From: Solirubrobacterales bacterium
GTDB taxonomy: Bacteria > Actinomycetota > Thermoleophilia > Solirubrobacterales > 70-9
Direction: 5' to 3'
Length of the DNA: 12,781 nucleotides
Assembly: GCA_013694825.1 (NCBI GenBank)
Contig: JACDBR010000133.1
Location: forward strand, 1-12,781
Shown here: positions 2,983-9,195 of the stretch, in pieces
How the letters are laid out: every line of letters starts with the position of its first letter
Numbering within the stretch: the stretch's first letter is position 1
Notes under the pieces: generated by a model
Told to the model about the DNA's origin: nothing
Seen by the model: only the letters and a program-made list of their open reading frames with translations
Database searches by the model: none
Made by a program: the position numbers and the translations under genes

Positions 2983-3008
2983 GTTTTCCGCCCACACGCC
3001 TCGGGTAC
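2983..3008 (+). promoter_or_regulatory. Candidate σB/σF-type promoter of the sigma factor gene
   Basis: GTTTTC (2983–2988), a 14-nt spacer and GGGTAC (3003–3008) resemble the known Bacillus σB and mycobacterial σF promoter pattern (GTTT box, 12–17 nt spacing depending on definition, GGGTAT). The ATG of the sigma gene begins 10 nt after the end of the −10-like box. Transcription would therefore start within a few bases of the start codon, giving a leaderless or near-leaderless mRNA. The same layout recurs before the anti-sigma kinase gene. GGGTACCC is itself palindromic, but no GTTT-like box is present for the opposite strand. This is a sequence match only; no start site is known. Confidence 0.5.
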
Positions 3009-3017
3009 CCGAAGTAG

Positions 3018-4073
3018 ATGAGCACGGCCCAGATCGAGGCTCCGCAAATTCGCGAGCTCCTGGCGCGTGGTGCCGAGGCCGGTTTCATCGAGCTCTCCGA
3101 GCTCGAGGAGGTGCTGGCCGAGGTCGACCTCGACGACGAGGCTGTGCACGCGCTCCACGAGGAGATCGAGAGTCGCGGCATCTCGCTGCGCGACGACTGC
3201 GCCCGAGCCGAGGCTCCGTCCACGAGCTACCGGCCCGACGAGCTCAACATCGCGACCGCCGACGCGCTCCAACTGTTCTACCGCGAGGCCTCGCGACATC
3301 CGCTGCTTCGCAAGGAAGACGAAGTGGCGCTCGCGAAATCGATCGAGCGCGGAGATCTGCGGGCCAAGGAGCGGATGATCAACTCCAACCTGCGCCTGGT
3401 CGTCTCCAACGCTCGCCGCTACGAGAACCAGGGTCTGCCGCTGCTCGACCTGATCCAGGAGGGCAACATCGGCCTGATCAGGGCTGCCGAGAAGTTCGAC
3501 TGGCGCCGCGGCTTCAAGTTCTCCACCTACGCGACCTACTGGATCCGCCAAGCGATGCAACGCGCACTCGAGACTCGCTCTCGCACGATCCGGCTTCCGA
3601 CCACCTTGGCTCAGCAGGAGCGTCGGATCGGCCGCGCCGAGCGTCAGCTCGCGACCAAGCTGGGGCGGGAGCCGACCCTGGCCGAGGTCGCTGCGGCGGC
3701 CGAGCTCGCGCCCGAGCAGGTGAGCTTCGTTCGCGACGCACCGCGAACGGTGACGAGCCTCGACCGCCCGGTCGGCGAGACCGAGGATGCGACCCTGGGC
3801 GAGTTCATGCCCAGCCAGGCCCCCGCGCCCGATGAGCAGGCCACGGTCACGCTCGGGACCGAGTCGCTGCGCCGAGCGCTATCGCACCTGCCCGAGCAGG
3901 AGGAGCGGGTGGTGCGCTTGCGATACGGGATCAACGGCGACCGCGGCCAGCCCCTCGAGGCGATCGGGCGAGAGCTCAAGGTCTCGCCGGAACGGGTTCG
4001 CGAGATCGAGCGGCGGGCGCTGAGCCGGCTGAGCGAGAACCGCGAGCTCGACGCGCTGCGCGAGGTCGCCTAG
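3018..4073 (+). CDS. RpoD-like sigma-70 family RNA polymerase sigma factor (group 1/2 paralogue)
   Basis: A 351-residue sigma factor with all regions. There is a short region 1.1-like segment (about 8–58, IRELLARG...), region 1.2 (about 78–112), region 2 (about 116–190, with LIQEGNIGL and [15 protein letters not shown]), region 3 (about 195–270) and region 4 (about 280–345). Region 1.2 and this size place it with group 1/2 factors, not with σB/σF or ECF. Aligned by eye to E. coli σ70, one of the two −10-melting tryptophans (W433) is Tyr174 while W434 is kept. In the −35 recognition helix, R584 becomes Pro324 and Q589 becomes Glu329, while E585, R586 and R588 are kept. It is therefore probably an accessory paralogue with shifted promoter preference rather than the housekeeping factor. 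It lies next to a STAS and anti-sigma kinase pair; whether that pair controls it is unknown. Confidence 0.92.
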
Positions 4074-4077
4074 CCGC

Positions 4078-4557
4078 TCAGTCGCGCTCGATCGCGCGCT
4101 TGTAGGCGGCTTGGAGGTAGTTGGCCGCCGTCGCCGAGGTCAGCACCCCGGAGACGAATCGTGTTTCGCGTGGGCGTTCGACCATCCCGATAGCGAACCC
4201 GGTCGCGACCCACTGGTCGAGGCAGTAGGGGCAGGAGAGCAGCTTGCCGAGCGCCCGCCGCACGGGGCCGACATCCTCTCGCGCGCGCTCGGAGGACTCG
4301 GCGAGGTCGCCACGACCCTCGAGCTCCGTCAACGGCGCACGGATCGGCGCGGCGATGTCCTCCTTGCTGATCACCCGGCTGAGCCGATGCGTCGCAATCC
4401 CGCTCAGCGCGAGGTCGGCGACGGAGCTGCGCTCAGGGAACCCACCGCGGGTTCCGCGGTGGATGAGGTATGCACCGAGGCCGACTCCGTAGGCGCTCGT
4501 CATCAAGGCGTAGCCGGACAGAGGCCGGGGATCCTGCTCGAGTCGCTCCCGCTCCAC
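4078..4557 (-). CDS. DUF1360 family protein
   Basis: A 159-residue protein of the DUF1360 family, function unknown. Visible family features are a hydrophobic N-terminal segment (about 15–33), the ATHRLSRVISKEDIAAPIRAP block (55–75), a charged middle and the LLSCPYCLDQW motif with Cys109 and Cys112, followed by a second hydrophobic helix (about 115–125). The CxxC pair just before a hydrophobic segment could bind metal or be redox active; this is not shown. The GTG start at 4557 shares one base with the TAG stop of the upstream STAS gene (TAGTG), so translation is probably coupled and the two form an operon. Its stop lies only 4 nt from the convergent sigma gene's stop. Confidence 0.85.
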   Translation of the reverse strand: MERERLEQDPRPLSGYALMTSAYGVGLGAYLIHRGTRGGFPERSSVADLALSGIATHRLSRVISKEDIAAPIRAPLTELEGRGDLAESSERAREDVGPVRRALGKLLSCPYCLDQWVATGFAIGMVERPRETRFVSGVLTSATAANYLQAAYKRAIERD

Positions 4558-4913
4558 TAGTCCGGCGAGAGCGAGCTCAGCGCCTCGGTGCGGGCGGGGA
4601 AGACCGCCAGAGCCTTACCGATCCCCGTCAGCTCGAGCAGACGGTCGACGTCGCGCGTGGCGCAGCAGACCGCGAACCGGCGTCCGTCGAGCTCGGCGAG
4701 CTTACGCTGGGCCTCGACGAGAAGGCTGAGCCCGGTCGAGTCGATGAACTCGCAGCCGCTGAGGTCGACGAGCACGGGGCCGTCGCCGGTGCCGATCGCC
4801 TCGGCCAGCGGGGCCCGCAGGTCGGGAACGGTCGCTTGATCGAGCTCGCCGGAGACCTCGAGCGCGTGAATGCCGCGCACGTACTCGGTGACGACTCTGA
4901 ACGACCCGCTCAA
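4557..4913 (-). CDS. STAS-domain anti-sigma factor antagonist (SpoIIAA/RsbV-like)
   Basis: A 118-residue single STAS domain. In partner-switching systems such proteins bind the anti-sigma kinase and release sigma, and are inactivated when that kinase phosphorylates a conserved Ser. The phosphorylation loop CEFIDSTGLSLLV spans 54–66, with Ser59 after Asp58, matching Asp57/Ser58 of Bacillus SpoIIAA. The strands ALEVSGELD (17–25) and VLVDLSG (47–53) fit the fold. The TTG start at 4913 is chosen because a strong GGGAGG ribosome site lies 5 nt upstream; the next start candidate is an internal GTG. It is divergent from an RsbW-like kinase gene 214 nt away and heads a two-gene operon with the DUF1360 gene. 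The kinase is the likely partner, by position and family. Confidence 0.9.
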   Translation of the reverse strand: MSGSFRVVTEYVRGIHALEVSGELDQATVPDLRAPLAEAIGTGDGPVLVDLSGCEFIDSTGLSLLVEAQRKLAELDGRRFAVCCATRDVDRLLELTGIGKALAVFPARTEALSSLSPD

Positions 4914-7942: not shown

Positions 7943-8214
7943 GCGACGAGCCGCAGGTCTATCGCAGCGGCGCCGGGGAACCGGTCGCCAAGCTAGCCGC
8001 CGGCGATCCCGGCCGCACATCCGCCCAGATCCGGGCCGATATCGAGCGCCAGCGCGAGGACCTGGGCCGCTCGGTGGGTCTCCTGCGCACCCGGGTCACC
8101 GAGTTGACTGACTGGCGGCGTCAGGTGCAAGAGCACCGCCGCGAGCTGACTGTCGCCGCCGGCGTGGTCGGCTTCGTGGTCGGCGTCCGTCTGATCGCCC
8201 GCGCTCGGCGATAA
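7939..8214 (+). CDS. DUF3618 domain protein
   Basis: A 91-residue protein with the DUF3618 signature RTSAQIRADIERQREDLGRSV (about 26–46), a charged coiled-coil-like helix (35–68) and a single C-terminal hydrophobic segment (about 69–87) followed by basic residues. It therefore looks like a tail-anchored protein with a cytoplasmic helix. Function unknown. DUF3618 and DUF1469 genes are commonly adjacent in actinobacteria, as here, which suggests that the products act together at the membrane. The ATG overlaps the upstream stop by 4 nt; the stop at 8214 is followed by a 39-nt gap to the convergent DegV gene. Confidence 0.88.
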   Translation: MSDEPQVYRSGAGEPVAKLAAGDPGRTSAQIRADIERQREDLGRSVGLLRTRVTELTDWRRQVQEHRRELTVAAGVVGFVVGVRLIARARR

Positions 8215-8253
8215 GCAGCGGATCTCCCGGTCAACGGTCGGTTTCTCGGGCGC

Positions 8254-9138
8254 CTAGCCCTCCAGGATCGCCGGGTCGATCCCGCCGACGCCGAGCAGGC
8301 CGGGGCCGACGTGGGAGCCGATCACAGGCCCGACCTCCGAGACGAAGAGCGGGTCGGATCCGAAAATCGATCCGCAGGCTTCGATCAGCCGCTCCGCCGT
8401 CTCTCGGTCCTGGATGTGCTGGACCACCCAGGCCTCGTTTCCCTGTTCCCGAAGCTCGCTCGCGAACTCGACCATGCGCTCGAAGGCTCGGCGGCGAGTC
8501 CGCACCCGCTCGACCGGGGTGATCTCCTCTTCGAGCGTGAGGATCGGCTTGATCTGAAGGGCCGAGCCCAGCCACGCCTGGGCCGATCCGATCCGCCCGC
8601 CGCGGCGCAGGAACTCGAGCGTGTCGATCGCGAACCACATCCGCAACGACTCGCGGGCCCGCGACTGCGTCTCGAGGACGGCCTCCACACCGGCGCCGCG
8701 AGCCGCCGCGCGGGCCGCCGCGACGACGAGGAAGCCCTGTCCGCCGCATGCCGAGCGGCTGTCGCAGACGTGGACGCGCTCGCCGCCACGGCGCTCGGCG
8801 ATCAAGCGCTCGCGAGCAGCCAGGGCGGAGTCGTAGGTGCCGGAGATCCCGGCCGAGATGTGAATCGAGACGATCTCGAGGCCGGCGTCGAGCAGCGGGC
8901 CCCAGGCGTCGATGAAGTCGCCGAGGGATGGCTGCGATGTCGTCGCCACGGCACCGCTCTGGCGCAGTCGCTCGTAGAAGCTCGAGTAGTCCTCAGCGGC
9001 GATGTCGAGCTCGCGCTGCTCGCCGGCGCCGATCGAGACGTAGAGGCTGACGCGCTCGATCTCGAGCTCTGCGACCAGCGCCTGGGGCAGGTAGGCGGTC
9101 GTGTCCGTGACCACCGCAACTCGGCGGGTTCCCTCCAC
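8254..9138 (-). CDS. DegV family fatty-acid-binding protein
   Basis: A 294-residue DegV/FakB-type protein. In Firmicutes these bind a fatty acid and present it to the kinase FakA for phosphorylation. Family landmarks are VVTDTTAYLP (9–18), TTSQPSLGDF (66–75), HISAGISGTYDSA (93–105), DSRSACGGQGFLV (126–138), LEFLRRGGRIG (174–184), QIKPIL (195–200) and GPVIGSHVGPG (270–280). The GTG start at 9138 gives the normal short lead into the first strand. No Shine–Dalgarno precedes it, so a leaderless mRNA is possible. It is divergent from the epimerase gene (82-nt gap). No FakA-like kinase is in the window, so the partner lies elsewhere or this member has another lipid role. Confidence 0.93.
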   Translation of the reverse strand: MEGTRRVAVVTDTTAYLPQALVAELEIERVSLYVSIGAGEQRELDIAAEDYSSFYERLRQSGAVATTSQPSLGDFIDAWGPLLDAGLEIVSIHISAGISGTYDSALAARERLIAERRGGERVHVCDSRSACGGQGFLVVAAARAAARGAGVEAVLETQSRARESLRMWFAIDTLEFLRRGGRIGSAQAWLGSALQIKPILTLEEEITPVERVRTRRRAFERMVEFASELREQGNEAWVVQHIQDRETAERLIEACGSIFGSDPLFVSEVGPVIGSHVGPGLLGVGGIDPAILEG

Positions 9139-9171
9139 CGGGCGGTTCTATCAGTTTCCCGTCGAGCCGCC

Positions 9172-9195
9172 GTATTCGCACTCGGCCTTGGGTAC
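9172..9195 (+). promoter_or_regulatory. Weak σB/σF-like box upstream of the epimerase gene
   Basis: GTATTC (9172–9177), a 12-nt spacer and GGGTAC (9190–9195) have the spacing of the site at 7288, but the first box deviates from GTTT. The end of the box is 25 nt before ATG 9221. A competing housekeeping-type −10 element, TAGAGT (9206–9211), lies 9 nt before the same ATG and would give a leaderless transcript. Either or both could be used. Confidence 0.3.

Follow-up and report, generated by a model that had tools for sequence, protein, structure and literature searches.

In Bacillus subtilis, rsbV, rsbW and sigB constitute one autoregulated operon, whereas the parts of the SigB/SigF-type system considered here are scattered in the genome; the two systems are alike in promoter form and in the partner switching between kinase and STAS-domain proteins. 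The system was outlined from a stretch of 12,781 nucleotides (nt) of a Solirubrobacterales bacterium (assembly GCA_013694825.1, 54.5% complete in 302 contigs; contig JACDBR010000133.1, positions 1 to 12,781, hereafter the window), in which four GGGTA elements had been described, in a preliminary description, as a candidate local stress regulon. The B. subtilis SigB consensus is cited as GTTTAA-N12-14-GGGWAW in the available text of PMC8346170, according to which the SigB homologues of Streptomyces coelicolor, like the present system, use GTTT and GGG-type boxes with 12-15 nt spacers and an often loose -35 element (GNNT). S. coelicolor differs in having nine paralogous sigma factors with cross-recognition, and neither a leaderless rule nor a group-2 relay is described in that text. 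For Mycobacterium smegmatis, the available text of PMC4694148, PMC7693655 and PMC6448022 reports a SigF consensus of GTTT-N14-19-GGGTA and RsbW kinases with their antagonists; of the three RsbW homologues, rsbW3 belongs to the regulon and is preceded by a SigF promoter, and leaderless transcripts are common (24%; PMC6448022). In all these respects the present system, as predicted from sequence, is alike. For Mycobacterium tuberculosis, the action of SigF on sigB was reported from transcription in vitro but not from chromatin immunoprecipitation or the assay of PMC4821874 itself, which, in the text available, omits the link from its network. In a search that lay mostly outside subscription journals, no report of such a regulon was found for Solirubrobacter, Thermoleophilia or Conexibacter sigma factors, and the nearest literature for the class, as far as its available text goes, is the WhiG/RsiG paper (PMC8325347).

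We propose, with a probability of roughly three in four, that a genome-wide SigB/F-type general-stress regulon has members in the window, where sites 1 and 2 are firm promoters and site 3 is a probable one; the likely reader of the regulon would be a sigma factor encoded on another contig, C54. This reading is carried by the observed boxes, their conservation, a peak in the position of GGGTA before start codons and the identities of the genes. The features of the window are the following (lengths of proteins in amino acids, aa).

2983..3008, + strand: site 1, GTTTTC-N14-GGGTAC, 9 nt before the sigma gene start, predicted leaderless
3018..4073, + strand: RpoD-like (probably group 2) sigma factor, 351 aa; Pfam regions 1.1, 1.2, 2, 3 and 4
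4078..4557, - strand: DUF1360 protein (PF07098), adjoining the STAS gene
4557..4913, - strand: STAS-domain anti-sigma-factor antagonist (RsbV/SpoIIAA-like); TIGR00377 over cut-off
5093..5118, + strand: site 2, GTTCAC-N14-GGGTAA, 9 nt before the kinase start, predicted leaderless
5128..5664, + strand: RsbW/SpoIIAB-like anti-sigma kinase, 178 aa; HATPase_c_2 over cut-off, SpoIIAB and RsbW models below cut-off
7288..7311, + strand: site 3, probable, GTTTAG-N12-GGGTAT, 38 nt before the first small gene
7350..8214, + strand: small membrane operon of DUF4235-like (44 aa), Actinobacterial Holin-X (153 aa) and DUF3618 (91 aa) genes by Pfam; DUF4235 below cut-off
9172..9195, + strand: site 4, GTATTC-N12-GGGTAC, probably a chance match, absent in homologue loci
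9206..9211, + strand: TAGAGT, a sigma-A-type -10 element (TANNNT) that would suit a leaderless epimerase transcript; TANNNT is common at epimerase loci
9221..10279, + strand: HpnA-like NAD-dependent epimerase; TIGR03466 at 290 bits, below its cut-off of 368

A recount of the window confirms that GGGTA occurs on the forward strand at 3003, 5113, 7306 and 9190 only, with the boxes and hexamer-to-hexamer spacers as listed. Exact GTTT is found at sites 1 and 3 only, site 2 (GTTC) and site 4 (GTAT) having three of the four letters. On the reverse strand, GGGTA lies at 3006-3010, the other half of the site 1 palindrome GGGTACCC, and at 12718-12722 within an ABC gene. The number of copies is ordinary (six on the two strands together, where shuffling gives 4.58 on average and at least six in 66 of 200 shuffles). 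Their placement is not ordinary: as had been claimed, every forward-strand copy is intergenic (4/4), the intergenic fraction of the window being 8.7% on our gene list; as a control, the 19 other permutations of the same letters are intergenic on that strand in 8 of 175 cases. At sites 1 and 2 the GGGTAN hexamer ends 9 nt upstream of the start codon, a feature absent from the earlier account, and the transcripts would therefore be leaderless.

The assignment of the sites to the SigB/SigF promoter class is borne out by the form of the boxes and by the conservation of sites 1 and 2, for which a SigB/F-type promoter is strongly supported by comparison of homologous DNA. The congener G001, a genome in one contig, keeps 16 of the 18 window genes within one stretch, in which the DUF1360 gene and a nitrilase-like gene were not found. 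Its site 1 reads GTTTTC-N14-GGGTAT, 9 nt from the sigma start, with the same -35 box and spacer length and a different spacer sequence, and its site 2 has GGGTAT 9 nt from a candidate GTG start of the kinase, with a looser -35 box. Homologue loci were scanned over the 300 nt upstream of the match and its first 60 nt, the kinase, holin, epimerase and SigB/SigF/SigG (SigBFG) loci being the best 30 matches of each search. The sigma set comprised 85 rows (80 named loci, the window, G001 and three more sigma factors of the window genome), and the nearest named relatives of the window sigma are mostly Thermoleophilaceae and Solirubrobacterales assemblies. A GGGTA at leaderless distance is present at 18 of the 83 sigma loci with upstream DNA, two with less than 80 nt having been left out. 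In the 13-row clade of the window sigma (support of 86 in the Shimodaira-Hasegawa-like approximate likelihood-ratio test, SH-aLRT, on a quick tree) it marks 11 of the 12 loci with readable upstream DNA, against 0/10 in the RpoD-like clade and 0/20 in the clade of a third sigma factor of this genome, another group-2 clade; the remaining seven fall in other parts of the tree. The 16 named leaderless loci belong to 15 genomes, of which 13 encode a SigBFG protein over cut-off. At the kinase loci, window and G001 included, 23 of 30 have GGGTA, all with at least three of the four GTTT letters and 19 with the exact box.

Site 3 is intermediate as a regulon member. Of the 29 loci with a DUF4235 match (one of the 30 had none), six, belonging to four genera, have a GTT-type box with GGGTA before the DUF4235 gene, namely the window's own L200 together with L205, L222, L224, L226 and L228, hence 5 of the 28 other loci, and the exact GTTT-N14-17-GGGTA occurs in 4/29 against 0.02 in shuffles. 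In G001, GTTT is retained and GGGTA is lost before the membrane operon. We consider it probable, from the distribution of these boxes, that site 3 is a SigB/F-type promoter of the membrane operon. A relaxed GTTT...GGG pattern at the DUF4235 gene (11/29 against 0.47 in shuffles) was not counted as SigB-type, because several GGGGAA matches could be ribosome-binding sites and a TAGGGT could be a sigma-A -10 element.

At the epimerase, none of the 30 loci has the exact pattern, 28 of the 29 other loci lack GGGTA in the 300 nt upstream, and the last has GGGTA without a matching box. G001 likewise lacks GGGTA there, and CTCTAGAGT is common to both species at that place. At 23 of 30 loci a TANNNT lies no more than 20 nt from the start, as in a leaderless sigma-A promoter; letter shuffles yield 1.2 such loci. 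It might be supposed that the four sites are all real members of one regulon, to which the epimerase was recently added in this species, since a GTT- or GTA-type box stands at proper spacing at every site and regulon members can turn over between species; with GGGTA and a matching box in 0/29 other epimerase loci, the congener included, and the frequent TANNNT, we regard this as unlikely. Site 4 is probably a coincidence, given its absence from the homologous loci, and its inclusion in the regulon is not upheld. Conservation in relatives therefore holds for sites 1 and 2, in part for site 3 and not for site 4, and two, probably three, of the four flagged sites look like genuine switches of a general-stress gene set when homologous loci are compared. 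As a separate observation, TATACAAT at window positions 10619-10626, shortly upstream of the ErpA-like gene start at 10635, is kept in G001 and resembles a leaderless sigma-A promoter.

The sigma factor of the window is, to judge from its predicted protein, RpoD-like, probably of group 2, and not SigB/F. Among NCBIfam models it matches those for RpoD best, in each case below cut-off; it falls below the cut-off of the SigBFG model TIGR02980 (124.2 against 234.35 bits), and its regions 2.4 and 4.2 are RpoD-type in appearance, unlike those of the SigBFG protein. The sigma factor of contig C99 matches RpoD better (its best RpoD model scores 449 bits and that of the window sigma 282, with cut-offs of 555 and 572, so that both are below; on TIGR02393, 349.5 against 246.9 with a cut-off of 354), and the two fall in different clades of the quick tree. 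The sigma factor on C54 (L044 6805-7617), by contrast with that of the window, scores over the TIGR02980 cut-off (242 against 234.35 bits). An RsbW-like kinase gene lies there in the opposite direction, its end overlapping the end of the sigma gene. Directly upstream of the sigma gene is an SPW-domain gene preceded by GGGTAC, and a GGGTAT lies 102 nt before the kinase start; the boxes on C54 and on its G001 counterpart are three-of-four matches, not exact ones. This arrangement differs from that of M. smegmatis, in which rsbW, in the available text, is cotranscribed with sigF, whereas the C54 kinase has its own box and points towards the sigma gene. In the window, the neighbouring HATPase_c_2 kinase (5128) and STAS antagonist (4557-4913) constitute an RsbW/STAS partner-switching pair, in which the kinase would be expected to bind a sigma factor and to phosphorylate the STAS protein. 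In G001, a GAF/PAS/SpoIIE-type phosphatase gene lies between the STAS and kinase genes (L049 7209-9875), a place where the window has none.

At the genome level, the exact GTTT-N14-17-GGGTA is in excess in G000 (8 against 2 in the control); since it is not in G001, tests based on position were used. Genes were called from those open reading frames (ORFs) that had a stop upstream of them in the stretch, with a filter on the G+C content of third codon positions (GC3) and no gene finder; for each ORF, at most six candidate starts were considered, all within 180 nt. A set A of 811 called genes was drawn from 1.13 Mb of DNA, made up of two stretches of G001, C54, the window and the 80 named loci. 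In this set GGGTA is most frequent at distance 15 upstream of ATG/GTG (22 cases, against 33 over distances 19-40), and over distances 14-18 it occurs 42 times, the next permutation, GGTAG, reaching 26. Without selection for a -35 box, a signal appears 14 nt upstream, hexamer to hexamer, with G at -20 in 26/40 and T at -19, -18 and -17 in 15/40 each. As 10 of the 22 distance-15 genes are sigma genes, set A leans on the finding itself, and hence a separate sample of G001 was taken (800 kb at nearly even spacing, the homologous locus excluded), which gave 18 GGGTA at distances 15-17 against 12 over 20-49. The 26 SigBFG neighbourhoods gave 26 against 29 over the same distances, with a G-T-T-T signal similar to that of set A. 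That the four boxes are all chance matches in intergenic DNA would agree with the ordinary GGGTA count, the chance-like site 4 and the lack of a clear excess in G001, but it is barely credible in view of the conserved sites 1 and 2 and of the position peak in the G001 sample, which is independent of the finding.

The same form recurs across the family. In 50 family genomes, GTTT-N14-17-GGGTA followed by ATG/GTG after 9-11 nt was counted at 157 leaderless-type sites and the reversed pattern at 27; with a 20-22 nt gap the counts are 42 and 23. Leaderless-type sites number 3.94 per genome with SigBFG over cut-off (n=35) and 1.27 without (n=15; Mann-Whitney p=3.5e-5), compared with 0.49 and 0.67 for the reversed pattern and 0.94 and 0.60 for the 20-22 nt gap (p=0.06); these p-values are uncorrected for kinship or completeness and, the genomes being related and incomplete, are therefore optimistic. 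Around the SigBFG genes themselves (22 neighbourhoods, 296 kb), 43 exact sites were counted against a shuffled mean of 0.45, and among the genes downstream are those for anti-sigma kinases, small membrane proteins and PfpI-like proteins, the last recognised from their first residues only. Further sites were observed before other genes. On contig C224 (L045 2784-2809 and 3451-3476), the genes of two small hydrophilic proteins that match no Pfam family each follow a GTTT...GGGTA at 10-11 nt, and a third site, GGGTAA on the reverse strand at 1726, lies 49 nt before a 363-aa frame. In G001 (L322 18822-19487), two convergent genes for small hydrophilic proteins each have GGGTA 15-16 nt before the start. 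Divergent pairs of a metallophosphoesterase-like and a second gene, 35 and 53 nt apart (L096 6352-6386 and L116 6178-6230), carry GGGTA in both directions 15-16 nt before the starts; the L096 stretch, being almost a palindrome, could instead be an operator.

Several observations weigh against a genome-wide regulon read by the C54 sigma and starting at leaderless promoters. The SigBFG gene itself has no box directly upstream (GGGTA in 1 of 32 loci, that one without a -35 match), and all 43 exact sites lie in 20 regions of other genera, none being in C54 or its G001 counterpart. In set A and in the G001 sample, the permutation GGTAG, overlapping with GGGTAG, is elevated as well. Across G001 the exact pattern is hardly above control (9 against 7) and the -35 signal of the 18 sampled sites is weak, so that this genus would use looser -35 boxes. 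Only 7 of the 23 kinase boxes, in a set that mixes orthologues and paralogues, are leaderless (9-10 nt from the start); most others lie at 50-120 nt, and a leader would therefore be common at kinases. Finally, G108 has a leaderless sigma box and SigBFG only as a match cut at a contig end, and G114 has the box and no SigBFG over cut-off (best E-value 5.3e-41). G114 also speaks for the earlier idea that the window's own RpoD-like sigma reads the GGGTA sites and the locus is self-wired, as do the place of site 1 directly before that gene and the leaderless GGGTA that marks its clade. This idea was not borne out and appears improbable: the protein has regions 1.1 and 1.2 as well as RpoD-type regions 2.4 and 4.2, the SigB/F/G sigma is on C54, site counts track the presence of SigBFG and sites crowd near its genes. 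What the window holds is not a local regulon of four genes; it is two or three neighbouring members of a genome-wide one.

From these observations we infer which sigma factor would read the sites, the leaderless start, the sign of the feedback and the nature of the signal as stress. We propose that the SigB/F/G-family sigma of C54 would be held by the adjoining RsbW-like kinase and released by STAS antagonists. Once free, it would transcribe the kinase genes of the window and of C54, resulting in feedback, and the RpoD-like group-2 sigma gene of the window; since the latter is a conserved target, this would amount to a relay from a group-3 to a group-2 sigma factor. The spacing at sites 1 and 2 would set the start of transcription on the start codon, giving leaderless mRNAs. 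The SPW-domain gene, which would be a further target, may form an operon with the C54 sigma gene, which would offer a route of positive feedback, so that, on the arrangement of the genes, negative and positive feedback may both be possible. The window kinase could itself act either way, because an RsbW homologue with a SigF promoter in M. smegmatis boosts rather than damps the regulon, according to the available text of PMC7693655. The conserved group-2 target distinguishes this lineage from M. smegmatis SigF, as far as that system is described in the texts available. The relay is akin to that of M. tuberculosis, in which a group-3 sigma acts on a group-2 sigma gene; it differs in that the present box is conserved across genera (compared with the available text of PMC4821874).

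The kind of system is already known and, as far as genomic DNA can tell, is newly outlined in this lineage. The finding offers a testable promoter rule (a GTT-type box, 14 nt, GGGTAN, 9 nt and the start codon) and candidate stress-response targets for a deep-branching, little-studied class of soil actinobacteria that is known mostly through metagenomes. Comparative support is also gained for a relay from group-3 to group-2 sigma factors, a link that is uncertain in M. tuberculosis. More tentatively, and although we consider it less likely than not, it can be hypothesised that this SigB/F-type regulon may be leaderless by design for many of its members, the -10 element fixing the start on the start codon, and that its conserved targets may be the group-2 sigma gene (relay) and the anti-sigma kinases (feedback), not the SigB/F sigma gene. 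If this were true, stress would act as a joint switch of transcription and of the way in which translation is initiated.

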